Under the pieces are notes generated by a model. That model saw nothing but the letters and a program-made list of their open reading frames with translations, ran no database searches and was not told where the DNA came from. A stretch of DNA of 64,000 bases from Mesodorylaimus sp. YZB2_4 (taxonomy: Eukaryota > Nematoda > Enoplea > Dorylaimida > Dorylaimidae): NCBI GenBank assembly GCA_030248295.1, contig JASANH010001463.1:1-64000 (forward strand), given 5' to 3'. The position numbers were made by a program, and so were the translations under genes. How positions within the stretch are numbered: the stretch's first letter is position 1; every line of letters starts with the position of its first letter. Below are positions 35-26,640 of this stretch, one piece after another.

Positions 35-3000
35 TTGCTTGTCGATCAGCAGTACCACCGCAACCAAAGCATAGCCATTTTGCGTGCTGGTGCTGATGCG
101 GCCGAAGGTAAGTTCGTGAGAGCTCTGACGAACAAGCGTGCAAAGAAAACCAAACTGCCGAAGGAGCAAGCGCAATACGAGGCTAAAATCCTTATCACGG
201 GAGTCATGAACTGTCGCCTGAAGTGCGTTGTGAGGTTAAAGAAAGGAATCTTGGCTTTGCAAAAGCGGTGCAATAAATTGTTGGAGAAGGCGGTAGGCGA
301 CGAAGCTAACTTGGACGAGGTTTGTGGTAACGCAGTGCACTCAAAAGGTAGAGAGCCATACTTTTATGAGGCAGCGTACAAAGTGTTTGATGGCGATGTG
401 ATTGCCATGAAGTGGACACCTGAGTGGCACACCTGTCACAGTGAAGGACGCGCAGACGAGGTCCCTGTTGCTGTGCATGATGATGAGAACCATAATGCAG
501 TGAAAGTGAAGGCAAAAGACCGCGAAGTGTGGCCGTGTAATGCACTAGGAACATGCGTCTTGCCCGATAATTGTCTCGTCCGGCTGATTGCCTTATGCGC
601 AAGAATGGTGCAAGAAAAAAAATTTCAGGCGATTTTTGGCAGATGGAATTGATGTGTGCTCGCATCTGAAACATCCGCAGAAAACGGAAACAATTAGTCC
701 TGAGAAGATTAATAGCAGAAGCGTGCTGGACTACAAGATAATTGTGACTGACAAACTCGGCCATTCAATCGCTTGCTTGCCTGACAATTGCGACAGCGAC
801 TTACTTTTCTTACGTCGAATGGGTGTGCACTATCCTTCTGTGCAAAATGTTCTCAATGCTGTCTATGATGTCCAAGCACTGGACAGACAGCTGAGTGCCA
901 TCGACACGGCTCTGGTGAAAGGAGATGAAGATACGCTGGAGAAGATGGTGCTTATGCTGTCTGGTCCAGATGCTGCTGTGGCATCGGATTCAGTCGCAGT
1001 CGAAAATGCGGAAAACGACGTAGAAATGAAAATAAAGCACTTGCCTTATGCACTCGAGTTTCTGAAGGACGTACATCGGAAGCCTGTGTACAGCTGCGCC
1101 TCGTGTCGTGTCTTGCACTACAGAACTCGAGTGCGTCAAGTGCAGTTTGTCCCTGATGACAAAACGGGCACAGTGAAGGTTTACACTGGAACTAGCATGA
1201 AACGGAAGAATGCAGAGAAGCCGTGCAACGACCTGTGGCTGCAGCTGTACGGTATAACTGAGGCGGAGTGCCGAAACAAAAGCGAGCTATACGTCTGCCA
1301 TCGTTGCTTCTCTCACTTGACCAAAGGTGGAGCCAACGGCGCGAAACACGCACCAATTTCAGTTTCCAACCAACTGGAGGTAGCTGGCACGCCTGCCGAG
1401 TTGAAGGACTTGAACGAGTTCGAGAGGCACTTTGTGCAGAACGCCAAGTGCTTCCAAGTAATCTATCGACTGGGTACGATGCAGTCGAATACGTTGCCGG
1501 CTTCGTGCAGGGTTAAAGGGCACAAGGGCCAAGTTGTACATTATCCGCTGCCACTGAGCGAAACGCTGCGTGCATTGCCTGAATCGGGCGGCATGCCATC
1601 CGACCAGAAAATGTTCATTGTAGTGTATGGCACTCCGACTAAAAATAAGGTGGTTTGGAAAGCCCTAGTCGACGTGCCAAAGATAAAAAAGGCAATCGAA
1701 AAGTTGAAGGAGATAAACCCGGAGTACAGGTATGTGGCCGATGGCTGGGACCCGTTTAGCACTGTTGAAATGACAGAAGACGAGTGCGACGAGGAGATTG
1801 TGAAAGAGTGCGAGTGGTTCGCGAAAAAAGCCATGATCAGGAAAATCGATAAAAAGGATGAAGAAAAGATAGTGGACTCTTTCACCGTGCAGCCGCTCTT
1901 TAAACGGAAGCCAGACGCGTCCGATCTGGAATTGTATCAAATGGAAAAAGTGGATGCTGAACGTATCGATCCAAGAGAAGAAAAATTAGATCTCTGGTGC
2001 TTCCCGCACTTGTACCCAGAAGGCAGGAATGGCGAAGGGGAAAAACGGGAGCCAAAGTTGTCGAATGCAGACTTTGTGACTAGTCGCTTGTACAACGAGA
2101 ATCCCAAGTTTAGACACGATCACCAGTACTTGGTCTACTTGCTGCACAAGTATCAGTTGAGGGCTATCGCAAACTCGATAAGCCAAGCACTCCGCAACAC
2201 CTTTGCTTACAACAATATGACTGTAGGCGAGTTTGTGAAAAATGTAAGCAAGGGTGAGCAGGAGCTGGAAGCCAATTTGTACACAGCCTTTCAAAAAGTG
2301 CGTGGAACAGCTGAGTATTGGGACCAGCAGCGCATGGACCTGCGGACAATGGTTCGAGAGCTGGGCCCACCATGTTGGTTTCTCACGTTTAGTGCAGCCG
2401 AGTACTCGGAAGACTGGCAGGATATGCAGGAGATGCTGATTGAAGTGAACAAGTGCGTGCAAGAATTTAACAAAATGAGTAATGGCGAGCGATGCGCTAC
2501 CGACCCAGTCAGTGCAAGCAGGCACTTTCACCATCGCTTTAGAGCACTTATGAAGAACGTTATTCTGAACAAGGATGGCCCGCTAGGTCATGTGACCGAC
2601 TTCTTTTGGAGAGTGGAATACCAGTCGAGAGGAGCCCCCCATTTCCACATGGTGGTATGGGTGGAAGATGCGCCCAGGTTAGGCATTGACCCACCAGAAA
2701 TTGTGCTCGAGTTCATACAAAATTATGCCACCTGTCGTTTGCCAAGTAAAGATAAAGAGCCACTGTTGCACAAGCTGGTCACGACCTACCAAATGCACCG
2801 ATGCAACAAGTACTGCAGAAAGATACGGGGCAGGTGCAGGTTTGGATTTCCGAGGCAGGTGAGCGAGGCTGCCACGCTAAACGACCCGCTGAAAAACGTG
2901 GGCCAGCGGCTAAGAGGCAAAAGCGAGTCTCGCCTTTACTATCTCCCACGTGGAGCCTCTGAGAGAACGGTGAATGACTACAATGCTGAGCTGCTACTGC

Positions 3001-5525
3001 TGTGGCAGGCCAACATGGACATTCAGTTTATTGGCGAGAACACGCACGCGGTCGTCAACTACATTGTCAACTATGTGACCAAAAAGGAAAAGTCCGCCTT
3101 GCAGGATTTGTGGGACAGTCTGAAGCAAGACAGCTCGACCTACTCGCGTCTGTTCAATATCGGCTGTCGCTCTTTGGCCATGAGGGAATGCGGCGCCTAC
3201 GAAGCTGCCGATTTGCTACTCGGTCAAAACCTATTTGGGAAAAGCCGATCAGTCAAGTACGTCTGCTCGAGACAGCCACATTTACGTCCTCGAATACTGA
3301 AGCCATTGGCCAAGTTGAAGGACATGGATCCAGAGTCGACTGACAAGTACGAAAACAATTGTATCTCTACGTATTACCCAGACAGGCCGGAAAGTCTTGA
3401 GAACATGTGTCTCTATGATTTCGTGCGTTTGCACGATCGAGACTCCATGTCCAACACTGGCCCCTTGGCGTTTAAAACGGAGGCGAACGGACGGCTGAGT
3501 GTAAGAAGCAAGCCATATTTGATCAGTCATGCAATGTACAACTTCCAAGAAAGACAGGAAGAGTACTGCTACTCGCTCCTCTTGCTGTTCAAGCCCTTCA
3601 GAAGCGAGAGTGAAGAATTGATCGACGCTAATGCAGGAAGCTGCATTCCTGTGTTCGAACGGGAACTATTGCACAACGAGCAACTGGCTGAGTACCACTC
3701 TCGTTTGGTGCTGCGGGAAGAGGAAGCGCAGAAGAACAAAGAGGCCATCGAAAAAGAGAAGAAAGCAGCGAGCCAAGAGGCTGAGAACACGCCAGGTGAC
3801 AGAGAGCCCCAAGTGTTGGGCGAACCAGTCGAGGCGGCATTAGCCATGCAGGAGTTCGATATAGCCATGCAAAATGCTCCTGAGGAAAGCCTGGAAGAGA
3901 TGATTAGCAGTCTCAACAGTGACCAGAAGCGTATCTTTGATAAGATCACGAGCCACATGCAAGAGAGCGCAGAGCCCTTGCGACTGTTTATCAGTGGAGC
4001 AGGTGGCACAGGTAAGAGTTTCTTGATTAACACCCTGAAGTTGTGGATGAATGACCAGTGCGGGATGAATGGAACCAGTGTCGCAGTTGCGGCCTTCACT
4101 GGCTTGGCTGCTTTCAATGTGAACGGCATGACGTTGCACAGGCTGCTGCAGTTGCCAGTGCAGCATGGACTCAAGAGTGCGTACTCTCCACTGTCTGACG
4201 ATGTGTGCAAGCAGTTGCGCACCTACCTGAAACAAGTCAAAGTTTTGGTCATCGACGAAGTGAGCATGGTGTCGAACGTTCTCCTTGCGTATGTTCATTT
4301 ACGCCTGAACGAAATTTTCAACAGGAATGTGGAGCACATACTATTCGGAGGGCTGAACGTGATCGTCATGGGTGACTTGGCGCAGCTGCCACCTTGTGGC
4401 GACGGTCCGCCTTTCCAAGAACTGACCGCTGTACAAGCGAACAAGATCATCGGCGGCTGGGGCGCGCCTGAGCTGTGGGGAACATTTGCCTACGATGAGC
4501 TTACCATCAATATGAGGCAGCAAGAGGATCCCGAATTTGCGGGCATTCTGGACAGGCTGCGATTCGGCCAAATGACTGAAGAGGATGTTTGTGTGCTGCA
4601 GGGTCGGCTGATCCCTCTGACATCGCAAGTGGATCCATTGGAAGCCTTCGCTCAGAGATGCGTGCAACTGCGCAAGGCTGGCCGTGAAATGATCTGTTTA
4701 ATGGCCTTACAAAAAATGGTCAACGAGTTCAATAGTCGCATGCTCGATGCAGAAGCGAGCAAAGTGATTCAAATATCAGCAATTGACAGTTTCGTGTACC
4801 TGGGCCGCCGTGCTTCGAAGCAACAAGCTGAGAAAGCGAAGGAGCAGCTAAGAAAAATGGCAGCCAAAGAGGGCAGCAGACAGACTGCTGGCATTGAGGA
4901 GAGTCTTCGTCTTTCCATCGGGGCGCGAGTCATGCTAAGGAGAAATGTTGACATTGCGAGCGGCTTGGTGAATGGAGCTGTCGGTTGTGTGGCCAGTTTT
5001 GAGTATTCTCCATGTGGAAAAGTTGTGAACAAGGTGCTTGTCAAGTTCGATGAGGTGCCCAGCGTGGTCATAATTCACAGGGCGACCGTCAAGTTTGAAC
5101 TGACGAAGCAGATGTATGTTGATCAAAAGCAGTTCCCACTCATCTTGTCCTATGCGATGACCATCCACAAGGCCCAAGGCATGAGTGTGTCCCAAGCTAT
5201 GATTGATGTTGGCAATACAGTCTTCAGCAAGGACGCTGGTGCAGGCATGACGTACGTTGCTTTGTCTCGCGTGAGGACTCTAGCAGGCCTCTACTTAATG
5301 AACTTTGATCCGAGTATGGCTCGTGCTAATGCCAAGTGCGTGAAGGAAATCAATCGATTGCGTCAGGAAAATGAGTCGCACCTTCCGCAGCTAGTCGTGT
5401 CGAGCAAAAAGCTGAAGAAAGTGCGTGATCATGCTTGGTGCAGCGCTCTAAAACAGGATGCGCAACCAGTGGCTGTCGACGATCATGGACAAATGCAGGC
5501 GAGAAAAAGCAAGACAAAGGGTTAG
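35..5525 (+). CDS. Helitron RepHel protein (Rep endonuclease plus PIF1-like helicase), one frameshift
   Basis: The protein nicks and unwinds DNA for rolling-circle transposition. Two overlapping frames form one reading unit: 35-652, and 588-5525 (1645 codons). They meet at a run of eight A at 615-622, where a one-base slip would join them, so the copy is probably inactive or miscalled there. Counting from 588, a replication-initiator motif with HFH lies near residue 684. A conserved NYIVNYVTK segment with two candidate catalytic tyrosines is near residue 825. The helicase follows, with Walker A GAGGTGKS near 1137, Walker B VIDEVSM near 1220 and a C-terminal YVALSRV motif near 1554. It ends in TAG. 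This order and length fit animal Helitrons. The first frame opens at a TTG near the window edge, so the true start is probably further left. The N-terminal 200 residues match nothing I recognise. Confidence 0.9.
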
Positions 5526-6498
5526 TAACCAAGACTAAGCCACGTTGTGCCTACAAACGAAAGGCTACTGTCAATGAGACGATTTGTCCAGCTAAAAAAA
5601 GAAGCCCATAGAGCCTAAAATGGCAGGCCGTTTGGTTGATTTTGGCGAAACAGAAAGGAAGCGCCGCGAGATGAAAAATATGAGCACGATCAGCCCTGGC
5701 CATGCCGCGGACTTGATTGCGATAATGCCACGTGCTGTAAGACAAAAGATTGGCGGCGTGCACCCTGGTGATGCTCCTTGTGTGTCGAATATGAGGCTAG
5801 TGGAAAGGGTGCTATCAGTGAAACGTCTAGGAAGAGGGCGTTGGTCTTCAGCATTTGCACTAGCACCAGCACTAGCGACGGGGCGGGTCGTAGTAGGGCG
5901 CCGGGGGTGGAGGGTAAACCTACGCCGTCGAATGTTGGCTAGGCGGAGAACTTGCGAGACAGAGGGTGGACGACGAAGGCCTAGGGCTACAGTATGTTGT
6001 AAACGCTGATGCAAACGGCGAACATCATCGGACGTCCACGAGGTGTACATATAGCTGACCGCTATGCACTAAAGATTCGAACCAATGCAAAATTGCAAGG
6101 ATAAGCCGCGGTAACAGGGCCACATCGCGGGCATCACGCACTAAGCCTATCAGTAACGATTCGTAATAATCGACTGTCTTCGAGATTCCGTTCATCGCGG
6201 ATCTTGATAAAAAGCTCGTAAATTCAATCTCCAGTGTTCGGTTGATCGATCGCTCGACAAGCTACAATAATAGCGCTTGTCGTCGATTGACTACGTTTTG
6301 CTACCAAATAATTCTGTCGTCGATTAATCGAGCTGTGGAAATTGATGTTGCGACGCCGGAATCACATGTTGATTTGGTATAAATATGGTATATTTGAGAG
6401 ACACTTTCGATAACGAACTGCACACTCGATTCACCCCAAAACGACACTCTTATTATCTCCAGAATCCTCTATCACCACCTTTACATTCTCACTTTGCA
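5526..6498. other. Helitron 3' flank, no convincing gene
   Basis: A 129-codon open frame at 5620-6009 (+) overlaps the dispersed 86-base repeat and becomes arginine-rich noise. I do not regard it as a gene. From 6010 to 6498 I see nothing coding. Confidence 0.5.
5825..5910 (+). repeat. 86-bp dispersed direct repeat, copy 1
   Basis: It matches 10905-10990 in the same orientation with three mismatches by eye. It starts GTCTAGGAAGAGGGCG and ends GGGGGTGG. The sequence beyond differs at both ends, so these are true repeat edges. Confidence 0.85.
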
Positions 6499-6984: not shown

Positions 6985-7845
6985 GGTACATGACAAGCAT
7001 CAAGTCAATGAAGTTTCGCTGTGTTACCACAAAGGTAAATCCAGCCGATCTTCTGTCCAGAGGGGCAGCGGCTATGATCCTCAAAGACAAATCGATATGG
7101 TGGCATGGACCACAGTGGCTGCGCCGAGCCGAGGAAACGTGGCCTATACTGGACGAATTCGAATATGACCAGGCGGGTATCAACTAGAGTAACATTAAGC
7201 AGACAACTTTTACAGGAACGACGAATTTCGCTGCAGAGCTTCAGACGAAGTCGACCGAATCTTCGACGAAAACCAATACTCAAGTTGGAGGGAACTGATA
7301 CGAACCACCATGCTGTGACTGCAACTTGTGGCCAAGGTGAAGAGGAAGAAGAAGGGGCAGTCCTACGACAAGGAGAGCGAATTGGAGCCATCGACGCCAG
7401 AAGAGATCGATATGGCAGAGAAGCTATGGCTCAAAGCGATGTAAGCGAAGTATTTCATGGATGAGCTGGTGCACCTGAAGAAAACGCAGGGCGATCAGAA
7501 GGCAGTTCTCCTCAACAATGCAATACCTCTTTAGTTTAATGAAGATGGCGCCATTCGATGCGCTAGGAGAGTCAGGCAGGCAAAAATCTCAATTGAAGCG
7601 ATGAATCCTATCCTCCTTCTGGAGAATTCAAGGCTCGCACATGGTGATCAAAGAAGCTCATGAACAGACGATGCTCAGCGGCATATCGCACACATTGGCT
7701 AAACTTCGAATGCGATTTTCGGCTCCAACAGGGCGAGCAGAGGTCAATCGGGTAATCAGAAAGTGCAGTGTCTGTAGACAATGGTGCTGCCGCCATCGGA
7801 AGCATCTTTGTACCACTTGTGAATCGAGTTGGTTAAATAAATACT
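6985..7845 (+). pseudogene. BEL/Pao pol fragment: RNase H end to integrase zinc-binding region
   Basis: The segment starts with the NPADLLSRG motif typical of the end of the Pao RNase H region, then WWHGPQWL. After frame changes near 7230 and several stops it carries the LLENSRLAHMVIKEAHEQ block and CSVCRQWC, which match the zinc-binding region before a Pao integrase core. No integrase core follows. Several frame changes and stops make it non-functional. Confidence 0.75.
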
Positions 7846-8042
7846 AAAGTATACTTGCATGTGTACCATGCTTTCACCCAGACGCTCCGCTTGGGTACAC
7901 CACGCGCCGTCCAATAACGCGTGATGACTTCACAGAGTAAAGTGTAAAGCTATGTATCAATGTGCGCACACTTGATCAACTCACATACTAAATCCATATT
8001 ACACAAGTGAGCGGTAAATTCAAAATATTCTGTTGGAGAATA

Positions 8043-8160
8043 TATATATATATATATGCTATCATATTGTCATTTTGTATAACTTTGCCTTCTCATGTCT
8101 TTTTTGAAATGTGCAGTATAGTAGTAGCAGAAGCAGGAACTCTCACGATGGGTTATTGTT
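8043..8160 (+). repeat. Left arm of a long-range inverted repeat (pair with 10994-11112)
   Basis: About 115 bases starting in an (AT)n tract and ending GGGTTATTGTT appear in reverse complement at 10994-11112. I see no mismatch between the arms outside the AT tract. The two arms bracket about 2.8 kb of repeat-rich sequence. Confidence 0.9.
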
Positions 8161-8230
8161 GCGGCGAGGCTGCTAGGTTGCTTATAAGGTCCCAAAGTCT
8201 CCCAAAGAAAAACAAAAAATGACACTAACC

Positions 8231-8312
8231 TACAGGGAGAGGGACTCAAACCTCCGCGGAAGTTCTTCCATTGGATCTTAAGTCTAACGCCTTAACCACT
8301 CGGCCAACCCGG
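8231..8312 (-). tRNA. tRNA-Leu(UAA)-like sequence, probably a pseudogene or SINE head
   Basis: The reverse complement has a good D-arm and box A (GGCCGAGTGGTTAAGGC), an anticodon loop CTTAAGA with TAA, a long variable arm as in leucine tRNAs, and a T-arm region GGTTTGAGTCC. Faults are visible: a mismatch in the anticodon stem, a misaligned T-stem that looks one base short, and an acceptor stem that pairs poorly. I therefore favour a decayed tRNA or tRNA-derived repeat. Confidence 0.5.
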
Positions 8313-8407
8313 ATGATAGCACACTCGTCGCCGAGTGAGGTCGCAAGGCGAAGTCCATTTTATTAATTTTTTTCACCAAAAAAGCCTTTTCGAGAGTCCT
8401 TATTATC

Positions 8408-8443: not shown

Positions 8444-8512
8444 AATCTAAAATGGAAAACGCGCGCGCGAAAAAGCGGTTTCCCCACCCTTCGGCTCGCC
8501 TTTAGCTCTTGC

Positions 8513-8935
8513 TTGTTTTTGAATTTCCCACCAGCGCGATGTACCTGAACATTTTTTAGATTTCGCTCTCGCGCTTTTTTGAATTTCCCTCTAGCATGAT
8601 GTGCCTGAACATCTTTTAGACCTCTGCTCGCCCTTGTTTTGAATTTTCCTCCAGCATGATGTGCCTGAACATCTTTTAGACCTCTGCTCGCCCTTTTTTG
8701 AATTCCCCTCCAGCATGATGTGGCTGAACATCTTTTAGACCTCTGCTCGCCCTTTTTTTGAATTTCCCTCCAGCACGATGTACCTGAACATCTTTTAGAC
8801 CTCGCTCTCGCGCTTTTTTGAATTTTCCTCCAGCATGATGTGCCTGAACATCTTTTAGACCTCTGCTCGCCCTTTTTTGAATTTCCCCCAGCATGATGTA
8901 CCTGAACATCTTTCCCGCCTCGCTCTCGCGCGCTC
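8513..8935. repeat. Minisatellite, about seven copies of a ~60-bp unit
   Basis: Each unit contains TTTGAATTTCC, CAGCATGATGT, CCTGAACATC and CTCGCCCTTTT-like segments. Copies differ by scattered substitutions. The minus strand is open across the array because the unit is about 60 bases, a multiple of three, so the basic repetitive open frame there is not evidence of a gene. Confidence 0.9.
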
Positions 8936-9830: not shown

Positions 9831-10904
9831 AGGTGCCTACGCCAATTATTATTACAGCGCGAATTGACGCACTGGCGCGAGTCAACGGGGCCACGGGCTG
9901 AGCAAGTTGAGGCGGGAGCTGCGAAGAGAAACTGCATGGTGGCAGTCCGTCATCATGGCCTTCGTATTCCCATTCCGTGCTCCAAACTGAAGAGTGAGCC
10001 GCCTGAGGTTCGGGTTGGGCCATCGCCATCCTGCTCAGTTGTTGACCACCGGGCAAAAAAATTTCTTCCAGCATCCGATATCTCGGAATAGCGCGTATTT
10101 CGTCGAGCGAAATTTCCATCGTGACCACATCGTGACGCAATTTGATTTTGTCGAAGCGAATAAGTAGCTCGAAAAGCAATTTATGCTGATACTTCGGGCC
10201 TGCGTTCCATTTGATCAAACAAGGCCCGAGCTGGCCTTATTCGAGACCAGACTATTCACTCGGCAAAATAGTAGACGTTACAAGGACGACGCTATTGCGC
10301 AGCGAGGCCACCATTCCCAGTCTTGGTCGAATACATAAAAGACGAGAGAGGGTGGTGTGTGCACGTTTTATACGCCTACCCAACCATCGACCTAGCAGTT
10401 TAGCCCCGCCCTTGCGGTAGCAGTTTAGCCCCGCCCCCGCCTCGAGCGCCTGACGGCGGGCGCTCGAGTCTGTAGTACTACATATTTCTTTTCGCTCCTG
10501 GTGCCTGCTGCACTAGTTGTCTCTTGGTTCCTAGGATTTGTTTATCGAAAAAAGCTCTGCAGAAGGTAGAATCCCGACGGGTGTTTTGACTACTGCGTTC
10601 AAACATTATTTTTTAGCATCGCAGAAAAACCCACATTTTATTGCATCTGCATAAACATTTAGAACCGCACGTTTTTATTCGACTAACGAATGAGATTCAA
10701 GCAGATAATAATAATTATAATGGGCAATTTGCAATATTCTTAATTACAGCACAGGCGGGCACTGACTGGTTGGTCCATTGGCTGGGTGGATGGCTGGCTG
10801 GCTGCTGTGACCGACCAGAAAAAGGGGTGCATTGAGGTGTTGGGAAGAAGGAGAGCAAACCAAAGACTGGCGCAGGGAGTGAATGTTGTCAAACGCGACC
10901 CCCA
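9831..10904. other. Non-coding interval
   Basis: Only short open frames lacking recognisable motifs occur here. A 20-base unit containing CAGTTTAGCCCCGCCC is present twice in tandem near 10395-10435, followed by a short GC-rich inverted repeat around CTCGAGCGCC. Confidence 0.5.
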
Positions 10905-10990
10905 GTCTAGGAAGAGGGCGTTGGTCTACAGCATTTGCACTAGCACCAGCACTAGCGACGGGGCGGGTCATAGTAGGGCGCTGGGGGTGG
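10905..10990 (+). repeat. 86-bp dispersed direct repeat, copy 2
   Basis: It is nearly identical to 5825-5910. It abuts the right inverted-repeat arm, with only three bases between them. Confidence 0.85.
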
Positions 10991-10993
10991 AAT

Positions 10994-11112
10994 AACAATA
11001 ACCCATCGTGAGAGTTCCTGCTTCTGCTACTACTATACTGCACATTTCAAAAAAGACATGAGAAGGCAAAGTTATACAAAATGACAATATGATAGCATAT
11101 ATATATATATAT
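10994..11112 (-). repeat. Right arm of the long-range inverted repeat
   Basis: This is the reverse complement of 8043-8160, starting AACAATAACCC and ending in an (AT)n tract. It lies just left of the Polinton relic. Confidence 0.9.
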
Positions 11113-11235
11113 ATACTGTATATCACTCGACGAGGCTCAACGTGCAAAAAGAGCAAAATAAACACCCTATAAAATTCGAATGCACGATTGCTAGCAGATA
11201 GGAAACGCAAAATTATAAAGCAGTAAAATCGAAAA

Positions 11236-13930
11236 TCATATCGAGCAGCTAATTCTTCTGTCCCCGTGGAGCGTGAGAACGGCCGGATATTCGGCTACAA
11301 TAAAAAAAGCATTCAGGTGAAAAAGTTTCGAGGAGAAACTGAGCATCTTTCTGGCGCGTATGCTTACCTATAGCTACCATCGCCAATAGTTCTTGAGCCC
11401 CTTTTTGAAATGTGGCGCGTAGCATGAGCGAGCCTTCTTCGTTCGATGATAAATAACTGGAAAAACAAAACCATTTTTTCACATCATTTCAAAAGTATTA
11501 GAAAATAAAACATTACTGATAGCACATCAGAAAATGACATTTTCTACGAAAACATATCAAAAATGGCGTGTCCGTGATAACATAACATTGGGAAGAGCAT
11601 ATCAGTGATGACGCATTCAGTGATAGCATACCAGAAATGACGTATCAGTGATAACATATCGGGCGAAGCATATCAGTGATGGCGCATCACAAAATGACAT
11701 ATCAGCGATAACATATCAGAAATATCATATCAGTGATGGCGTATCAGTGATAGCATATCAGAAAATGTTGCATCAGTAATGAAATATCAGAAAAATGACA
11801 CACTAGTGATGACGCATTAGAAAATGCCACATCCGTTGATGACGTATTAGAAAAACAAATGGCTAATCCTTCGACTGAGTTGAAGCGAGAAAAATAGGAA
11901 AAATAAATAAATAAAAATCAATCGACTTACGAGGCGCGCATGCCGCTCGAATGATCCCGCGACAAATCTATGACGAGGAAGAATAAGCTATTGGTATAGT
12001 CTCGGAGCGAAATGCTGAAGGTTGATATAAGATTCAGTTCGCGCATTAGCAGAAAATAAGCCAAATCCGCTTTGACCACATCGAGAACAGCGTCGGTCGA
12101 CAGTCGATACGGTATACTGGGGTATGGAGTCTGATTCAAGAAAACCTGAAAAAAAACATTATTGATTTTGCTGCAAATGCGACAAAAAGGGTAAAGAAAG
12201 CAAGAAAAGAAACAAAACGCACCTGAAGCTCGCTGAGATAATGCGGTTGGAAGTGAAATGGATTCAATTTCATTTCTTCCGCAACGATAGCCCGCTGCGG
12301 GATCAAAAACAGAGTCAGCCTATCGGGGCATCGACCTATCGAAAAAAGCCAATATAAATCGGCAAAAAAATGTGGCCCTTCCAAAAAATACAAAAAGAGC
12401 TCACCTCTGGAAATTTTTGCATTCGCAGCCGTATCATCCTTAGATATAAGAATTATTCTGGTGTCCAACCTCGGAAAGTGATAATGCAAGCCGGTCGTGT
12501 TCAGCAAATGATGTTGTCGAGCGAGGGCTTGCGGACGAAGCCGATAACGAAACACCATCATCCTAGAACCCGTAGAAAGAGCAATTATGCGAAGCCACGA
12601 CGAACAAAATGGGGGCAACTCATTGAAAAATATCCCACAAAGGACCGACCGAGGTTGCTTGGCTTTTTTAAACAGTGGAAAGGAAAAGTACAACCTACTT
12701 TGCTTCCACGACTTGAAACTGATAGTTATCAACCGAGCTATCCGCCATTAGAATAAAATTGCTGGAATTGAGCGTTAGCTGATATCTGGGAGAAATGAGA
12801 GATAATATTATATGATTTGCCGTGCAGACACAAGAAAACGTACCTAAACGAAGTGGAAGGTGGAAAGAATCTGGGCGCCAGCGAAGTCTCGTCGATCAAA
12901 CGTCCCAACAATGTGACTACATTCGACGAGGCGAACATGCTCGCGCGTTGACGTAAATTAGAACTTACACCCAAGCCGTCCCAGTTGTCGATAGTGTGAG
13001 CGTCAATCTCGACGTCGGGAAGAAATAAACTAGTGGACAACAGAAAACGCTTCGTCGAATCGCTGAAATGACGCATCTTATTTTGCTATTATTTTTTAAA
13101 ACCGACGACGAAATTGGCATTTTTCTCGCACCTACCTCAAGTTACAGACGGCTTGAAAGAAACTTTGATAATGATGATTGTTGGATGTTGAAGCTAGAAA
13201 AGGGAGAGACGTAAAATGATTTTTTCGCTTTTTCAAAATAAGCTCCAGGATGCTAAGCTCACCCGGAAGCAGCTGTACGTTTACGTAAAGGGCGCACCGT
13301 TTAATCATGGTGTTTAGCAAAAACGGAATAGTGCTAACCTAAAAATGAAAATTGGCGCAGAATTTGGGGAAAACTTATTAAAATCTCCTCACCTTATCAG
13401 TAGGTGAAAGCTTGCTTCCGTCGCTTCGAGCAATTTGCACTTTGAACATGAAAAAACTGTCAAACAGACTAACTGATAAATTTGAACTGCCGGCGGGTTC
13501 CAAATAGAAATCAATCGTCCCGGAACCCTAAAAACGCCAATTTTCTTAGCACATTAGATTAGCGAACAAATTTAAATTGAATCATACTTTGACGGGAAAT
13601 ACCGAGGACGAAGACCTCGATTCCAAAGACTGAGATTCGACATCCTGCTGCTCGGGTGGTGTGCTGTAGAAAAAGTGAACAGAGTCAGTCCCCCCCCCCC
13701 CCCCCCCCCCAAAAAAAAGCAGACCACTAAATAAAAGCTTACCTGTAGATTAGCTGATTCAAACTAGCCACAGTTCCAGTATAATTAGTAGCCAAAGTTG
13801 CAAATTCCTCAGCTTCTCTAGCAGCCACTCGAGCTTGAACGCCTTGACCGCTTGATTTCGCACTAGCATTTTTGACGCTTTGTTTTTTCAGTCTCCTTTT
13901 CAATGTCGTCTTCAACAGCTGGCTACTCAT
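11236..13930 (-). CDS. Polinton-type capsid-like protein, 12 exons, apparently intact
   Basis: Starting at the ATG at 13930 I can read exons 13930-13743, 13663-13588, 13527-13393, 13338-13263, 13193-13136, 13062-12844, 12785-12699, 12562-12405, 12335-12223, 12145-11931, 11456-11368 and 11294-11236. They total 1473 bases, or 490 codons plus TGA. Every intron is GT-AG and each phase fits the next exon. Segments such as GTIDFYLE, KLNPFHFQ, FLNQTPYPS and GSLMLRATF fall in the order of the animal family typified by C. elegans F54H12.2 (from memory), which sits in Maverick-like elements. I infer a double-jelly-roll capsid role; that is not visible directly. Exon choice used the expected frame, so intactness needs transcripts. 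Introns are 49-90 bases except the one at 11457-11930. Integrase and polymerase relics lie next to it. Confidence 0.65.
11500..11870. repeat. Degenerate minisatellite inside intron 10 of the capsid-like gene
   Basis: ATCAGTGATGAC, ATAACATATCAG and AAATGACATATC-like words repeat many times with an irregular 15-30 base period. The tract explains why this intron (11457-11930) is far longer than the others. Confidence 0.8.
13690..13718. repeat. Homopolymer junction C21-A8
   Basis: Twenty-one C followed by eight A, inside the first intron of the capsid-like gene. The exact length is likely to be unstable or miscounted. Confidence 0.9.
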
Positions 13931-14678
13931 GTTCGTCGTATTCTTCTTCTTCTTCCTCCGCTCGATCTCGTTCCTCTTTGTCCAGTACAGTCAAACGATG
14001 CCTGCCACTGCTAATTCTCGCAGTTTGTCGCTCCTCTTCGTCTTCAGACTCGGGATCAGACTCGTAATCACCTTCGTAATCTAGCAGATAATCTTTCTGC
14101 CCCTTTGTTTTGCGCTTCTGCACCAGTTTCCGCGTTTGCCGTCCACTAGTAGATGCAAGAGGCTTACGATCTTGATGATGATGATGATTAGTATCTTCGT
14201 CCTCGTCGGATAATAAATCGGCACAAAACTTGTCAATCGGAAGACGCCTTCTAATCGCTGCAGAAGGGGTAGAAGTAGTGGAATCACCAACAACAACAAT
14301 GGGCCTTTCCTTTCCACGCCTGCTGATCGGCCGTTGATAATGTCGTTGCTGATATTGAGGATCGAAACCACAACTGGAAGCTTGATCACTTCGACGACGA
14401 TTATAAGTATTTTCTATTCGGTCGCGTTGAGGATACTGAATAGCTAATCGATTCGGTAGTGGTCTAGGCTTACGTTGGGGGTCGAGATGGGGAGAGACGG
14501 CTCTTCTATCTTGCAACGCGCACGTCGAAGTCCCTACCGTCGAGGCTTGCTTCTTCACAGGCTGAGAACGTTTCCTTTTAGTCGGCGCCTTCTTGTTAGA
14601 CGTAGCAGCTAATGGTTGCAAAGCGTCGTCACAAACTTCTACCAAACCAGACTTGAAAGTTTCAGTAATTGCTGCCAT
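13923..14678 (-). CDS. Charged low-complexity protein overlapping the capsid-like gene start
   Basis: An uninterrupted 251-codon frame starts at ATG 14678 and stops in the sequence ATGAGTAG, where the capsid-like ATG lies eight bases before the end of this stop. The first half is rich in Lys, Arg, Pro and Gln (KKAPTKRKRSQPVKKQ). The second half has SDEDED, a histidine run and a final Glu/Asp-rich tract. It has no domain I recognise. Polintons and related viruses often carry basic core or minor virion proteins next to the capsid gene, so a DNA-binding virion-type role is possible but is inference. The stop/start overlap suggests coupled expression, or that both parts belong to one spliced transcript with an undetected junction. 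Confidence 0.5.
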   Translation of the reverse strand: MAAITETFKSGLVEVCDDALQPLAATSNKKAPTKRKRSQPVKKQASTVGTSTCALQDRRAVSPHLDPQRKPRPLPNRLAIQYPQRDRIENTYNRRRSDQASSCGFDPQYQQRHYQRPISRRGKERPIVVVGDSTTSTPSAAIRRRLPIDKFCADLLSDEDEDTNHHHHQDRKPLASTSGRQTRKLVQKRKTKGQKDYLLDYEGDYESDPESEDEEERQTARISSGRHRLTVLDKEERDRAEEEEEEYDEHE

Positions 14679-14832
14679 TCAGTTTTGAAATTTGCCATAA
14701 GAGAGAGAGCTCGCCGCTGTAAATGTCAGGTCCAAACTCCCGTATTCAATCGCATCAGTCGGAAACGGATCAATATTAAAAACCAGTTTGGCGACCAGAC
14801 GCTTGTCTGACGAAATTCAAACGCGAGACGGC

Positions 14833-14848
14833 GGGGGGGGGGGGGGGG
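14833..14848. repeat. G16 homopolymer
   Basis: Sixteen G in a row on the plus strand between the charged ORF and the next minus-strand frame. Confidence 0.95.
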
Positions 14849-15124
14849 CGTGGCGCTGGGGTGGAAGTCCGACCAATCGGGGAGCAGCGCTAGCAGCTGG
14901 TGCCACCCTAGGCTCGCTAGCTTATCAATGGTCAAATAAGCGAACCTGACTCGAAGAAGCTCGGGGGAATAAATTGGTTGACTTAAATTTCTGGAGAAAA
15001 GAAATAAATTTTTAAAGACGGGTAAGATCTCACGAACTACATTCTCACATATCATACATTTACCAAACAATTTTATTTTAAAAGTGCCTCAGTTTTTTCA
15101 ATGTCATTTTTCACTCAAAAGCGT

Positions 15125-15521
15125 CTAAACGTCTAAAACGTATTCGCCATTCATATCGTATCCTCTCCTTAATTCAAGACATCTGGCAGCACTTTCGGTA
15201 GAACACAGTTTGCAAAAGAAGTCAATATCCCAATCATCGCAAGGCAAAATCCGCACGATTCAAATGCTCGACACACCACACTTCCTCACGCATCCGCATC
15301 AGTAGGTTCCGTATTCCGGGAGTCCAAGCTGGCCGATTAGACGCTTTGAAACGCGCATCAGCTATTCGCGCAATATCACTGAGCAAACTGGGTTCATTTA
15401 TGACGACTGTCAAAATAAGATCGCTATCAGTCCTTTCGTTGAAAAAGACGTCATAATTCGTGGGCTGATGGAAAAAAGCCTTGATAACTTCTAGCCCGGC
15501 CAACTGCGATAATCTTAGCAT
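15125..15521 (-). pseudogene. Unassigned element ORF, probably frameshifted
   Basis: From ATG 15521 a 95-codon frame runs to a TGA near 15236. The adjacent frame then reads on without interruption as DDWDIDFFCKLC...RRGYDMNGEYVLDV to a TAG near 15128. The clean join suggests one coding unit with a single frameshift. It lies between the charged ORF and the integrase on the same strand, so it probably belonged to the Polinton. I recognise no family. Confidence 0.35.
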
Positions 15522-15867
15522 TTTGGCCCAGACAAATTAACGCAGAATCATACTGTTTCTCATTTTGTATCTCGATCGAAATTTAAAAAAAGGATCCTGC
15601 TTTTTCTCGATGCATCGTTTTTTTAGTTTTGCCTTGGAATTTTGGCCCACACGAAACCGACTTGACTACCATCTGCCATTTTCTATCGAGAAGAAACAAC
15701 GAGGCCGCGCGAGAAAACTGGCGAGCCTTACCTCAACCCCCTCCCTACAGTAGGCCATTCTATGAGAGCTGGCGGGCGGGCCGCCATTACAGGATCCATT
15801 TCAACCCGGCTCATTTCGAAAAATCATTTTTCCCCCAACAAAAAACGGGCAATGACAAAAAGGCTAC

Positions 15868-17071
15868 TTACTGGCCGGTGGAATCTTGAAGCTTATAAGT
15901 GTGAGGAATGGTCGGCAGGCGCTCAACTACTGTCCAAAGTTCAGGCCTGTAATATTGTCCTTGGGAGCTTTTTGTGCCTGATTTTCAAGCAAATTGATCT
16001 TGCTGCAATTTTACAACATCGTGGAGTTGAAAAGAGAAATTTTTTGGGTATCCTAATTTTTCAAATTTGGCTTGTCGCTTCTGGAATCGGAACTGAGCGA
16101 CTAAACGACCTTTGCTTTCTGGATCGGACCACACTTGAGCGGGAGACCAATTTTGAGGAAGAACTCTACTCGGAGTCTCGTTGATCAATCGCTGAATGTT
16201 GGGCAAAAGTTTTCATATATTGTCCCGCGTATGCGTGCTTAGATATCTGAAAATTCAAGAAAATAAATACAAAATGCGTCAGCACGCGTCTGGCGGAACA
16301 CTTGTAAATTAGTCTTTTCGACTGAAGAACCTTGGCCTCGGCCAGCGGAGCGCCAATGCCTCCGGTCGAGAGAAAATGTAAAATGCCTCTCTTCTGAAGC
16401 ATGGAATCGAAAGCGCTTCCGCAAAACTCCCCTCCTGAAATAAGTGGAAAAAAAGAAAACGTGCTTTAACGAAAAATAATAAAACGAGCATAAACTGTAA
16501 ATTAAAAATCGATATTCTTTGTCTCACTTTTGTCTGAGAAAATAATCTTTACACGTTTTCGTTCATCTCGCGCAATTTTGTCTAGGATCGATTTCACAGC
16601 ATTAGCAGCGGCTTCGACAGTTTTCGAAGCGAGTGGTCGAAGAAATGTGAACGTTGAGAGGGTGCACGAGCATACTAACATATAAGGCGAGCTTTGAGCG
16701 CGACTCAAATCATTCATAAAAGCGAGTTCGAGCTGTAAAATCTAAAAGAATCAAGCTGAGCGAAATATACAAGAAACTATGAACAAAAAAACCGCTCCAC
16801 TAACCTCAGCCACTTTGTAGGCAACAACTGGATGACAAGGAAATTTCCAATTGGGCAATCTGAACCGATTGTAGGCCGCGCTATCTCGTAACACGCGATC
16901 CACTGTCCGTTTCATCACACGGCCGAAACGTTTTTTCACGGCCTCGTAAAATGTTCTTCTCGCGCCTAAAGGCCCCAGAACAGGCCTATCACCATCGTCG
17001 AAATCTAGCGCAGTGTAAAGATGACGAATCTCGTCGTCTTTTGCTCGACGCTTTTCCAGCCACTTTTCCAT
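15868..17071 (-). pseudogene. Polinton integrase relic (retroviral-type DDE integrase)
   Basis: This enzyme would insert the linear element DNA. Exons read 17071-16805, 16732-16528, 16434-16302 and 16246-15868, with phases that fit. The N-terminal part contains RRTFYEAVKKRF and a KFPCHPVVAYKV block, as in Polinton integrases just before the core. In the core the second Asp is present (IIFSDK, just before a splice site), and an AEAKVLQSKRLIY segment aligns with the Glu motif. The first catalytic Asp is not evident. The C-terminal region has YKLQDSTG, typical of the SH3-like tail. TGA codons at 16213-16215 and 15985-15987 interrupt the frame and both read as point nonsense changes. The gene is divergent from the polymerase relic, about 200 bases apart. 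Confidence 0.75.
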
Positions 17072-17268
17072 TTCTAAAAAATGACATAATTTCAACGAGG
17101 GCGCCAGATGTGTTGCGTGCGTTTTTTACAATCTCCCGCCAACAGCGATAACGGGCTACATTGCCTGCCTGCCCACCTACCGACCACCCAACACAGTCAG
17201 TACGTACTGTACAAACGAGCGTACTTGGGCACCCGCTGGCGCGCCAGTCATTTTTTGAATTGTCTAAC

Positions 17269-18595
17269 ATGGCGGATGCGATTCAAAATCCAGCTAACAA
17301 TCGTGGCGATGGTGGGCGAGAGGACGATGAAGAAGCATTCGATCCCGACAACCCGGGATTTTGGGGACTCGAGTCGATCCCCTATGTTGTGCAAACTGGA
17401 TCTGACAGCTTTCAGTCGACTTGGCAAACGGCTCGAGACATCGGCATGCCACCTGAAGATCAAATTATGTGCTCAGAACCGGAAGAATTTGGACTAGGCT
17501 GGTCGTCCCAGGACCAGGAAATTTATAACGCGATAGTTGAGAATTACCACTCGACAAGAACTCATACGACCGATTTTAAAATTATGAAAATTTACACCAT
17601 ACGTCTTCCGCTTTTCGCTCCGATTATCCTCGAAAGAGTTAAGCATTATTTTCGAGCGGTAAGTTGTGTTTTAGGCCAAAATCTTAAACACAAAACCTAA
17701 ATATTTTACCCTAACTTTTTTTAGATATTTCTCGAACAAAATTCTGCATTCAAGCTGAATTTTGCTTTTTCATTTTTACTGAGCAGATTGTAAAATGAGG
17801 CAGGAGAATCTGATGACGCTTACGGCTCAATAAGAACCTTTATTGGAAATTCAAATTCCTTTGTTTATTACGACCGTGATCAGCCGCCTTTAATTTTGGA
17901 TCAATCATCTATGGATTTGGCGATCGATGCAGTGAACGAAACTGATCTCGTGGCGCAATGTAGCCTCAAAGACACAAAAGTCAGCCATTCTTACGCTCGA
18001 TTAAAATCAGCTAAAAGTTTCAAGCATGTCCTTTTTTTAGTGGCAATTTTTAAACTATTTGTCTTTGGTCGTTTTTGTCGACTTTGTGGGCGACTTGCCC
18101 ATTGGTTCTCCAAGTTTTTGCAACCAAGACCTACCACCCTATATCGCCAACAGTAAGCACATTCACGCATTTCTGAAAAATAATAAACGCAACGCGAAGG
18201 AAAATGGAAAAAACATTTTTTTTTTTCGTTGTCTCGCCGCCCATAAACTTCAAAAATTTAGAAAAATCGAACAGGAAACGAAAAATCTCTATCACACTTA
18301 CCAGGAGTACTTGGTGGAAAACAAACTCGCGTCAACACGTATGAAAATCGATAAATTCCGGGGAATGATGTTGGCCGATTTACACCGGGCCGAAGCGTGT
18401 TTCCAAATTTCGATTTAAGTCTGGACTTTTGACGGGGATGGTTCGAACGAAGATAGTGTCCGGGTTAAAGTGATCAGAAGATCAGTGGACGCTTATCCGA
18501 ATTGCAAAACTCTTCACTTGATGCAATTGTCTAATCACTTCTTTCTAATTTCCAATCATCGGCGACTAGCCAAAAGGTAAGCCAACCCCGCAAAA
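17269..18595 (+). pseudogene. Polinton protein-primed DNA polymerase B, N-terminal relic
   Basis: The intact enzyme replicates Polinton DNA. Exons read 17269-17658, 17725-17979 and 18041-18595, in frame across introns of 66 and 61 bases. Diagnostic blocks are DLPIGSPSF, IFFFRCLAAHK, FRGMMLADLHRAEACF and IRRSVDAYPNCKTL, which recur in this order in the N-terminal half of animal Polinton polymerases. TAA codons at 17791-17793 and 18416-18418 interrupt it. The exonuclease and polymerase motifs are absent: after a good donor at about 18596 the sequence turns into unrelated repeats. The first 80 residues are acidic and poorly conserved. Confidence 0.7.
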
Positions 18596-18600
18596 CAGCC

Positions 18601-19415
18601 CCTTTTCGATTTCCAGAGCATCTGGAGCGCCACCACGCGGACAATGCTGACAGGGCGCGGTGGAACTCCAGATAACGAGCGGCTTCGAGTCAATACCTGA
18701 AATCGGGTATTAGCGCTCTTGCATAGGGCCGAGCAGCGCTCGAGCCCTGCTCGAGTTCAACGCTCTTGGATAGGCCGAGTCCCGCTCGAGTCCCGCCCGA
18801 GTTCAACGCTCTTGCATATTGAGCGAACACTCGAGCGCGCTCGGGAGCGGGAGTGAACGCGAAGATTTTTTCCAAGTCCTTTTTATAAAAATTTTCAGTT
18901 GTAAGGACCTGAAAGAAATAGATATTTTGATAGAGAAAAATCTGCTCTACAAGATAGGCTGCTAAATTTATTTTTTGCAGTCAGTTTGGGTTTTTCACGG
19001 GCATTCTTTCGTCACCAACGGGGCCGAAGTTGAATTTTGAGCCATGAATTTTGAAGTTTCCTTTTATAATTTCGGTATTGCTTCAGCTTATCTGTTTAGC
19101 TATTCCAGCTAGTTCTTGACTTCAAACAAGCCACTTCATGGGAGATTTGTTTAGGTATTTAGGAGAGATGGCGGTGTGAAAAGAAGAAATCGTCGAAGCT
19201 TTCGAAAGTATTTGTCAATCGCTTAACATTTTGAAAAATACGGCTCTCGTGGAAAAATAGGTAAGTTGTATTTCTATTCTCATTGCTCGCGGACCTCTAT
19301 GCTTAGTGCTTGTGGACCCTATTGTGCTGTAAAACCTCAGGTTTTCTTGATGGTGGCTGGGTTGCGTATGAGGCAACAGAAATATGCAAGCTGATCCCCT
19401 TTTTTCCCATTCCTG
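18601..19415. repeat. GC-rich imperfect repeats and non-coding flank
   Basis: An imperfect hairpin at about 18617-18680 pairs ATCTGGAG with CTCCAGAT. From 18710 to 18860 a roughly 55-base unit containing CGCTCTTGCATA and CTCGAGTTCAA repeats about three times. The remainder, to the LTR at 19416, shows no gene. Confidence 0.6.
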
Positions 19416-19911
19416 TGTGGTGAAGTTGGTTTTTGGTTGATGGTTCACCTGTCCAGGGGTAGGGATTGCTGACTACTACACCAAACCAATTAGTGCTTAC
19501 CCAAAGTATGGCGGTGATAAGGCGTAACTCGGCGGTACGAGTTTCCGAAAGGAAGACGGGCCATCAGTGACTTTTACTTTCACAATGAAGAACGTCCGAC
19601 TCGCAAGAAAATACGCGCTCTTATATACCTTCAGAAAATGCACCCAGCCTAGCCCGACAACAGGTATGTCCAATAATTTGGATCTATGCAAAACAGGCAA
19701 ATACACAGAGCCTTGCCCGAGAACAGGTACGTCTGATAATTTAGATATATGCAGGGAAATGCACAGGGCCTGGAGAAGGCGACCTGTTTTAGCAGAATAG
19801 GAAAGGATCCAAACTAATCTCATGCGCCTAGGCATCTCCAAGACAGGTTGAAAGGTCAGTCCAGGACAAGAACTATATCACTGCTATTGGTCTTGACCAG
19901 AACTGTTGATT
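19416..19911 (-). repeat. 3' LTR of the Ty3/gypsy element
   Basis: It starts TGTGGTGAAG and shares its body with 26201-26636, ending near CAGAACTGTTG. It is about 60 bases longer because a 63-base unit (19647-19709 and 19710-19772) is present twice, against once in the other LTR. Confidence 0.9.
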
Positions 19912-19989
19912 GTCGATAGATTGAGCGGGAAATCAAATATACTTCGTCAAATACGCTTAGGGATTGAGACGAAAAGCGTCCTCGCTCGT

Positions 19990-20577
19990 CTATTTCTTTC
20001 CTCTAGATGGCCAAGGCGATGGTTGATATCGTTGAGTCTGAGTTGGCTTCTCACGCAGACCAGCCCCACGAGTTCTTGTTGGTTTTAACGTTGCGGAGGT
20101 GGTTGCTGTTGGTGGTGGTGTTGGTGCAGCCATTGACGGACTAGGTGTGGTCGCGTTTGTTGTCGACCTGCGGTCCTGATTCAAAGTCTGGCTGGTCACT
20201 GGTCCAGTTGCTTGCTGTTGGATTGGTTCTTGCACTTGTGTCGTAGACTAAGGATGAGTCGTTTCCAAATCGGGCGTAGGTGTTGCGACAGGAACCATTG
20301 GCGGGGTCGGTGCTGGTGTGTTAATCGCTAGGCGGACAGGCGATGTCGGCGGAGTTGAAAATTTTGGGGATTCAGCTCGTTGATTGGTCTTCATTTGTTG
20401 CTGATCTGGACGCGCTTCAACTGCTCGTCGATCATTTCGCACTTCAAGTTCACAATCTGGCCGTCCGCTACTAAGCTGTACGACGTCGTCTGTATGCGTT
20501 GCTGGATTTCTTGACACCAATCCGGCGTCATCGTCGTCATCGTCGTCATCAGATGGTGGGAGTTGTCATGGCGCATA
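19990..20577 (-). pseudogene. Pro/Thr/Gln-rich 3' tail region of the gypsy pol
   Basis: Overlapping minus-strand frames rich in Pro, Thr, Gln and Ala lie between the integrase tail and the 3' LTR. They contain no domain. They may be a low-complexity C-terminal extension or an extra ORF; frame changes prevent a decision. Confidence 0.35.
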
Positions 20578-23500
20578 GCAAGGTTTAAGACGATTATTGT
20601 GTACTAATTGTGAAGATGCAGTTGGGCAGGACCATTGTCGTATCACACTATCCACCACACTCGGTTTTGCCAGAATGATATACGGTCCTTCCCACTTTGG
20701 TTGAAGTTTCGCTCCCATCCCTTTGGGGACTGTTTGTAACCATACTGATTGGTTGATGTTGAAAGCGTTATCACACGTCTTTTTATCATAGTCCGCTTTC
20801 TGGCGTTCCTGAGCTTCTAATAGGTTCATGCGTATGATGGACTTCATAGCTCGCAAACCAGCGGCCAGTTCATCTGCAAAGGTTTTTGTATCGGCGGGTG
20901 CTGCTGGGGTCACCGTCAGCTCACCAGGGATACGAGATACGAGGTTCTCGGCCAAACAGTATTTTATAAGGCGAATAGTTCAATGAGGACTGCACTGATG
21001 AGCGGTAGCCGAACAGGATGAATGGCAGTGCTGTGTCCCATGATTTGTCAAAGTGCTTGGTATATATCCCCAGCATCGTCGCCAGGACCTTATTGAAACG
21101 TTCTGTTAAACCGTTACTCATCGGATGATATGCGGTTGTATTCTTCTTTTTGATGTCACATAGTTTGCATACTTCTTTCACGACACTATTCAAAAATTCC
21201 GCTCCTCGGTCAGACACTAATTCATTGCAGGCTCCGTAACGACATAGCACTTCTCGGATAAAAGCAGCAGCGACTGTCTTGGCAGTCTTATTGGGTAATG
21301 GTACTGCCTCGACCCATCGAGTGAAGTAATCTGTGAAGACTACTATGTATCCGTTACGGCGCAGTGATGTTGGCAATGGTCCGAAGAGGTCCACTCCAAC
21401 GCGTTCCAATGGGCCTCCAACTGGTGGCAGTGGCTGCAATGGTGACACTTGTTTGCGAACTGGATCTTTGAATTGTGCGCACCAATGACATTGTTTCACG
21501 AAACGTTCCACATCTTGGAAATATCTGTCCCAATATTAGCGTTGTGCTACTTTATCAAATGTTTTACCAACGCCAAAATGAGCGGCAAAGGTATCGCTGT
21601 GGCATTGCTGCAAGATTTCTCCCTTCATACTATGTGGCATTACGACCTGGAAAACTGGCTCTGCACTGTTGTTCCAGCGCATCAGATGTGTCAATATTCC
21701 GTCTTTTACAAGATATCTTGGTCTTTCAAGCAAGAGTTGCCTGGCTAGCGATTCATCAGCTGGTAATATGCCCAGTTCCAAGAATTCAATTCGTGTTTTC
21801 AAAGCTGGATCGTTTCTCTGGTGCATTGCTAGTTCTGACAGCTGTGCGTGCTGTTCCTAAAACCGTATGTCCATTTGCGACACTTCTCGTTCTATTGTGA
21901 CCATAGCCATGTCAGGTACACTGGCACGCGACAAGGCATCTACGTTTGCATGTTTCTTTCCTGGCCGATACCTGATTTCGAAGTGCATACCGGCTAGGTT
22001 CGCTATCCATTTGGCGAAGCGACCGTCATGGGTCTTATTCTTGAAGATGTAAACCAATGGCAAATGGTCCGTAATGATGATAAATTTTTGGCCATAAATG
22101 TAAGGGCGGAATAGCTTGACTGCCCAATTTACTCCCAGTCCTTCTAGTTCTGTGACCGCTTCACTAGCGACTAGAGATCTGCTGGCGTATGCGATCGGGT
22201 GCTCCACGTTATTGTCGTCGGTCTGGACTAGTATGGCTCCCAAACCTTAACGGCTTGCGTCAGTGTATATCGTGAATGGTTTCTTGAAATTCGGGTATAT
22301 CAACACTGGCGCCGAGGTCAATTTCTTTTTGAGTTCTTCGAAAGCTACTTTAGCATCCTTGCCCCAAACGAACTTTACACTTTCTTTTGTCAGCTCACAT
22401 AAAGGGCGAGCGATCTTTGAAAAGTCTTGAATGAAACGCCTGTAAAATGAGCACATGCCCGAGAATCGGCGCACGGCTTTCCTGTCCTTTGGTGTTGGCA
22501 TTCCCGAAACTGCTTTTACTTTGCTATTGTCTACTTTCAGGCCGGAAGTACTCACAATGTGACCTAAGAATGGTATCTCCGTTTTTAGGAAACTACATTT
22601 TGACAATTCGCATCTAAGGTTGACTTCATGAAAACGTTCAAAAACAGCTTCCAATCTTTTCTGATGCTCCTCATAGGTATCAGCAAAAATCAAAACATCG
22701 TCAAGGTATACCAGGCATCTGTTCCACATGATACCAGACAATACTGCATTCATCAAACGCATGAAAACTGCTGGTGCGTTTGTCAGACTGAAAGGCAGTA
22801 CTTTCCATTGATAGTGACCACCTCCTGGTACCCTAAATGCAGTCTTCTCCTTATCGCCCTCTTTCAGTTTGATTTGCCAATAACCCGATATCAAATCCAA
22901 CGTGGAGAAGAATCTGGCACCTGATAATGAATCAAGGATGTCATCTATGCGTGGCAAGGGGTACTCATCCCTGATGGTAACTTGGTTGAGTTCGCGATAG
23001 TCCACGCAAAATCGATACTCGTTTGACTTTTTGCGCACTAGGCAGATGGGACTAGCCCACGGGCTGCGGGAATCCTCTATCTGACCGCCTGATTTCATTT
23101 CCGCAATCATGTTATCCACGACTTCCCTCTGTCAGGAGGGTAAGCGTCGGGGTGCTTGATGAATAAGTGGATTAGAACGCGTATTTATGGCATGCTCGAT
23201 TTCGATATTGGTTGGTCTCAAATCCAACGTACTTGTTGCAAAGATTCCTTTCTTCGCTCAGTGCGTCAGGAAATTCTTCATGTCCATCTTCTGCCTTGAT
23301 GTCAGATTCGGGTTGTCAAACCTCATAGCATTGATCTGTTGCACAGGATCTTCTTTCTTCTTTGGTTTATTCGAACAGTTGTGCAGATCAGTTGGTATTA
23401 CCTCTGCAACCTCGTCGACATGGCCTAGGACAAGGCCAGACGGAAGGCAGAGGGGATTTTGTGTGCTATTCAGAACCTGAATGGGAATACGTCCATTCTT

Positions 23501-24226: not shown

Positions 24227-24610
24227 AAACTATCGAAGCATGGTCGTCAACATATTGAAAACAGGCCATATGAAAACTACTGCAAAAGCTTTTATCCCCG
24301 AAAGCACTGGTGGCCGTTTCATCACATTATATCGCCCCTCCACCACTCGGCCATGTGAGGCTACACGTTTCTGGTTTCGACGGTAGCACTTTCCTCCAAC
24401 GACTGGCGATGTGGTTTCGGTTGTGTGCTGGTCTAAAGCGACAAATGGGACCATAAGAAAAATTGAAATGATGCAGTCCCAAAACCGTGTGAAAATGCTT
24501 ACCGCATCTCCATTGCTATTCCCGGTACCACTCGTACCATCATTGTTTCCATTACTCTTCTCGGCCTGGTTGTTGCCACTTGTACCAACGTGGCCGTCTT
24601 GGCTACTGCC

Positions 24611-25877: not shown

Positions 25878-25934
25878 GATTGCAGATTATTGGGGAGATA
25901 ACTTGATGCAGCACTTAACTATATGATTACTGCT

Positions 25935-26115: not shown

Positions 26116-26200
26116 GGGGCGTGATTTCGCAATTCCAGATTCAATGATTTAGTGGTTTGTGACACTTTCTCTCCCGGCTAAGACTGGAGCGGCCCCAAAA

Positions 26201-26636: not shown

Positions 26637-26640
26637 TGAT

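Follow-up and report, generated by a model that had tools for sequence, protein, structure and literature searches.

Genes in the window's element copy

The window analysed here, a stretch of 64,000 nucleotides from the nematode Mesodorylaimus sp. YZB2_4 (contig JASANH010001463.1), carries on its minus strand a capsid-type gene at 11236..13930 that encodes 490 aa in 12 exons (13930-13743, 13663-13588, 13527-13393, 13338-13263, 13193-13136, 13062-12844, 12785-12699, 12562-12405, 12335-12223, 12145-11931, 11456-11368 and 11294-11236). The spliced sequence comprises 1473 nt including the stop, its 490 codons are uninterrupted with compatible phases, and all 11 introns, 54–474 nt in length, are of the GT-AG type. 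A spliced aligner that received the 490-aa protein and the DNA, without any indication of exon limits, recovered identical exons. Related copies on contigs C211 (L010) and C350 have exactly the same 11 introns in position and phase; in the spliced alignment of the C211 copy, GT and AG are retained in 11 of 11 introns, with 91.4% identity to the window in coding sequence and 80.5% in introns. The 12 exons, 1473 bases, 11 GT-AG introns and lack of stops proposed in an earlier, sequence-only reading were thus reproduced exactly, far beyond chance, and the 12-exon gene is confirmed. A chance run of phase-compatible exons was ruled out by the dN/dS of 0.08 relative to C211 and by the intron sites common to the copies. 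Intron 10 (474 nt) contains a degenerate repeat at 11553-11855 with units like ACATATCAGTGATA.

The gene lies in an element copy at 10994..18609, to which no strand is assigned and which is delimited by DNA homology with C350 and C211. Homology to C350 starts at 10994 and runs as a block to 18609, save for ~630 bp that are absent from the window at 14777/14778 and present in C350, C211 and C413. At 18609, C350 and C211 continue together and the window stops matching; these two have ~16.8 kb in common (C350 coordinates), of which 1.9 kb is C350-only. An inverted 124-bp copy (99.2%) of element sequence 10994-11117 is found at 8037..8160 on the minus strand, and the capsid-side end of the window element is rearranged. 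A minisatellite with 60-bp units (8512-8931) is situated near this inverted copy. Another repeat (10600-10991) borders the element start at 10994; besides the window itself, 6 of its 19 genomic matches, including one at 5825-5911 of the window, end exactly at 10991. The window also holds a Helitron-type protein at 588-5525 (plus strand), open over 1645 aa with Helitron_like_N, PIF1 and DUF6570, as well as minus-strand ORFs at 19416-26638 that we take to resemble a Gypsy-type retrotransposon, flanked by direct repeats at 19416-19912 and 26201-26638 (94.6% and 89.5% identity), and plus-strand ORFs at 28865-29960 that presumably resemble a piggyBac-type transposase.

Upstream of the capsid-type gene lies a 251-aa basic/acidic ORF (13923..14678, minus strand), the stop of which overlaps the capsid ATG at 13930. 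It has a dN/dS of 0.35 relative to C211 and recurs in a second clade of copies, described below, as pieces of 24–31% identity and one of 58%. Directly abutting it is the C-terminal remnant of a penton-size small gene (25 aa plus stop; 14679..14756, minus strand). At locus L021 a 212-aa penton-size ORF adjoins the capsid gene and is 42% identical to its C211 counterpart; it had no Pfam match and a best PDB E value of 0.19, and the two IMG/VR pattern matches of the penton-size gene included no confirmed one. Overall, the upstream genes are collinear between the window and second-clade loci, with most pieces 40–60% identical. The next gene, at 15750..17071 on the minus strand, is integrase-like and was modelled in five pieces (four introns), of which the last, 10 nt long, is uncertain. 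Judged by eye, Glu replaces the first of the presumed catalytic Asp residues in the window, where the gene also has two in-frame stops; the C350 copy is broken as well, and the C211 copy is open with D, D and E kept. For one second-clade copy, the integrase pieces matched Pfam rve, the sole family listed for them (E=0.0079, positions 6-94 of 102, below the curated cut-off), and the integrase-like pieces had no PDB match.

On the plus strand, a probable DNA polymerase gene is represented at 17404..18609 by its start, with conserved pieces at 17404-18586 and truncation at 18609. Polymerase-like exons follow this start in L037 and L038, and together with the window pieces they would form one gene, which in C350 and C211 appears, by our own reading, to run on into zinc finger and exonuclease-like exons. 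Three stretches of the polymerase-like exons align collinearly with a polymerase without introns on C773 (28%, E 8e-8; 25%, 1e-5; 24%, 8e-4), which overlies a PF03175 match; hmmscan of the C773 polymerase did not list this family, and hmmscan of the capsid-bearing elements gave no polymerase family. A protein search with the polymerase ORF returned none at E<=1, and three IMG/VR pattern matches included none that was confirmed. Separate motif scans gave 0 matches in IMG/VR and one, on C356, in the own genome. The C773 gene belongs to a distinct family of intronless polymerases in this genome (L040, L041 and L042 on C773, C216 and C397; single frame of 1068-1114 aa), the members of which are nearly identical by eye and apparently spread recently. 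This family is a distant relative of the element polymerase, from which it differs by being one open frame without introns. Of the 26 contigs with capsid matches, 11 have a polymerase exon no more than 12 kb from a capsid exon (C350, C413, C211, C308, C361, C689, C763, C606, C789, C644 and C704); for C234 and C420 the distance is 36–41 kb. The C211 element further encodes a Ser/Thr-rich protein (L038:1905-2462, plus strand) with one membrane-spanning stretch by eye and weak Pfam matches.

We take the 490-aa protein to resemble F54H12.2-type Maverick proteins, which belong to the nematode polinton/adintovirus group; nematode polintons and adintoviruses, as animal-associated Polinton lineages, are reportedly the subject of Jeong 2023 and Starrett 2021, both cited in PMC11071308. 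The name F54H12.2 received no mention in the literature searched. Against Pfam, the best match of the protein was UPF0524 (E 0.0042, below the cut-off), and PHROGs returned nothing with the window protein; three of five members matched phrog_29779 (E 0.022). PDB yielded one row at E 0.12 and then seven rows at E 0.091-1.5, in which 5l07 stood at E 0.09-0.12 and 5ykz, titled 'Capsid protein', at the chance level of E 0.42. Searches of protein collections with the capsid-type protein returned none at E<=10, phages gave four rows at E 5-8, and none of 11 IMG/VR pattern matches was confirmed. This lack of a significant library match would suit another structural or accessory role, distinct from that of the major capsid protein, within what would otherwise be the same virus-like element; we regard such a role as unlikely given the size of the protein, its strong conservation, its place beside a penton-size gene and its presumed likeness to F54H12.2-type proteins. 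Judging from that likeness and from context, the protein most likely forms the capsid.

Copies, shared introns and termini across the genome

Exon 6 of the capsid-type gene (72 aa) served as the query against the 145-Mb genome, with match counts representing lower bounds. It matches at least 30 places including the window, 6 at 92–100% identity and 24 at 41–62%, and capsid exon matches are spread over 26 contigs. Stretches of up to 10 kb were taken around 20 of the 29 non-window exon matches, and 15 alignments were refined. All 20 further copies align as multi-exon capsid-type genes with 8–12 exons, some of them partial. Protein identity to the window amounts to 93.7% for C211, 92.4% for C350, 91.3% for a partial copy with one stop on C413 and 78% for two broken copies on C433, while the 15 others, at 43–51%, constitute the second clade. 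In-frame stops are absent in 7 of the 21 copies (window plus 20); because the stop-free models at L017-L019 require an implausible 37-nt 'intron', they were not counted as clean, and the four clean stop-free models are those of the window, C350 (L009), C211 (L010) and C234 (L020). Some element copies form inverted pairs (C465:27040-38120, C433:9853-18740 and C175:142531-148562), and over 25 bases each flank of the C465 pair is the perfect reverse complement of the other; these pairs are either real palindromes or assembly artefacts.

Intron sites were compared between the window gene (11 introns) and the second-clade copy on C234 (9 introns), which are 51% identical. Four sites coincide in both position and phase, at window residues 178, 251, 333 and 370, a number that 0 of 100000 random draws reached; this test is generous since the aligner prefers GT-AG sites, but the effect is nonetheless large. 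Because the four sites are common to clades so far diverged, the introns travel with the element, and because the remaining sites differ between the clades, gains, losses or shifts of introns have occurred since within the family. The introns are old components of this element family.

Evidence for mobility is clearest in the second clade. Placed side by side, ten of its loci match as far as an ...ACTAC(T)-like end and have differing flanks beyond it, with four further bases in common between L020 and L021. The termini read AGTAGT...ACTACT, and the clade has terminal inverted repeats. A subterminal motif occurs in 14 of 15 second-clade loci, and in 12 of the 15 it is found together with the ...ACTACT-like end on the downstream side of the capsid gene; none of the nine window-clade pieces searched has the motif, and window-clade ends were not found. 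At least 40 genomic places bear the ...ACTACT-like end (84 candidates, 40 scored). Four facing pairs of ends were examined: that on C794 encloses 15.5 kb between flanks GGCTGC and GGCAGC, which match at 5 of 6 bases, that on C298 has no target-site duplication, that on C26 is without one end and that on C465 is palindromic. As C794 has no capsid or polymerase match among the listed matches, it supports the end structure and not a complete capsid-bearing element. Between capsid and terminus, second-clade elements contain two genes (L019:6443-7570 and 7590-8338, minus strand), the former encoding 375 aa. An ORF at L019:7593-8060 with the Walker-like motifs GSGKTS and VVLDDL reads by eye like a putative A32-type packaging ATPase; it had no Pfam match, a best PDB E value of 0.7 and no counterpart in the window.

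Selection and the question of host adoption

Between window and C211, the capsid-type gene has a dS of 0.345 and a dN of 0.029 (dN/dS 0.08), and its dN/dS between window and C350 is 0.53. The corresponding integrase ratios are 0.14 and 0.48. Since the latter are similar although the integrase gene is broken in both the window and C350, the pairwise ratios record how selection acted on the lineage that replicates rather than on the window locus. Purifying selection acted on the moving lineage. To resolve individual branches, changes of the window and C350 were polarised with C211, those of C413 were counted against the window, and the C211 lineage was assessed with C433 as outgroup. Silent and replacement changes in the capsid-type gene number 11 and 12 on the window branch, 8 and 25 for C350, 15 and 43 for C413, and 56 and 5 on the C211 lineage. 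Replacements on the C211 lineage are extremely low, and the counts for C350 and C413 fit neutrality.

These counts bear on whether the host has taken over the window capsid gene and selection keeps it while the rest of the element decays, a scenario that we consider improbable. The gene is open over 490 codons beside an integrase gene with stops, and its replacements fall below the neutral expectation (p 0.011-0.042 across three transition weights, without correction), whereas the C350 and C413 copies look neutral. However, the window-branch capsid counts are not distinguishable from those of its own broken integrase neighbour, which has 6 silent and 16 replacement or stop changes (Fisher p 0.22), nor from those of the C350 capsid (p 0.089). 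Moreover, 23 changes would escape a stop by luck with a probability of 0.35–0.45, and the C350 capsid copy is likewise stop-free (its first four residues being unaligned) yet looks neutral. The window capsid carries a weak hint of local constraint, and a retained host function, as had been suggested, does not follow from the window-branch counts.

The sequence-only reading had envisaged a capsid gene that gained 11 introns and was then transmitted for a long time as a host gene. This history is countered by the exon matches at 30 or more places, by the presence of introns in 20 of 20 copies, by the four intron sites common to the clades and by the split integrase neighbour. What stands of that reading is a gene that is open and rich in introns and lies in a Polinton/Maverick-like setting with integrase- and polymerase-like neighbours; the gain of 11 introns followed by transmission as a host gene is not supported. 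Domestication of a single copy is not supported by the number of places, nor by a constraint that cannot be told apart from the one on the broken integrase neighbour. Segmental duplication of a host multigene family unlinked to mobile elements would account for introns of host type and for the inverted duplications at C433 and C465, but is highly improbable because the block also holds integrase-like and polymerase-like genes and because the sister clade has sharp ends, terminal inverted repeats and differing flanks.

A probable intron-rich Polinton/Maverick-like family

With good probability, the gene is part of an element copy (10994-18609) that is truncated and partly broken and comes from an intron-rich Polinton/Maverick-like family. 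As in vertebrate Polintons/Mavericks, one element carries both an integrase-like and a polymerase-like gene, and terminal inverted repeats, known from the vertebrate elements, are present here in the sister clade (PMC8097293). The 6-bp target duplication of the vertebrate elements compares with 5 of 6 matching bases at one related element here (PMC8097293). Many integrated copies with capsid-type genes are likewise found among protist Maverick-Polintons and Polinton-like viruses (PMC10120064, PMC12220804). The main difference concerns introns. PMC8097293 describes intronless ORFs in 134 intact vertebrate Mavericks, with no introns observed, in agreement with earlier work, which bears out the earlier statement that virion genes of such elements usually lack introns. 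By contrast, the capsid, integrase and apparently polymerase genes are split here by spliceosomal introns, 11 in the capsid-type gene and four in the integrase model. Intronlessness is a usual, not a defining, feature of Polintons/Mavericks.

How introns could persist in a mobile element may be explained by a life cycle in which the element remains DNA and itself encodes the protein-primed DNA polymerase that replicates it and the integrase that inserts it. Host RNA polymerase II would transcribe it in the nucleus, and host splicing would take the introns out of the transcripts. If the element remains DNA throughout, its introns would never be removed and would move along with it. Both splicing in vivo and this mode of replication are what we infer for the family. 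On balance, we favour the view that a virus-like DNA transposon lineage took on and exchanged host-type introns while still mobile, so that its virion genes depend on nuclear splicing.

Introns in related elements have been noted in another form: in PMC12220804, some Polinton-like viruses contain group I introns, which differ from the spliceosomal introns of the present element. Weevil Mavericks carrying bacterial genes are described in PMC13419823, and the word intron is absent from PMC11071308. Among the titles and abstract openings listed, none mentions spliceosomal introns in animal Polintons; this does not prove that no such report exists. One large survey of integrated viruses employed a prokaryotic/virus gene finder on the grounds that endogenous viruses 'do not contain introns', with one organism handled separately (PMC10120064). 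A spliced lineage escapes searches built on this premise and would end up annotated as host genes. The present case also cautions against taking introns in a gene of viral appearance as a sign of domestication; copy number and common intron sites need to be checked first. Because the two clades of this mobile family differ in their introns, with four sites in common out of 11 and 9, the rate at which a transposon gains and loses introns becomes open to measurement.
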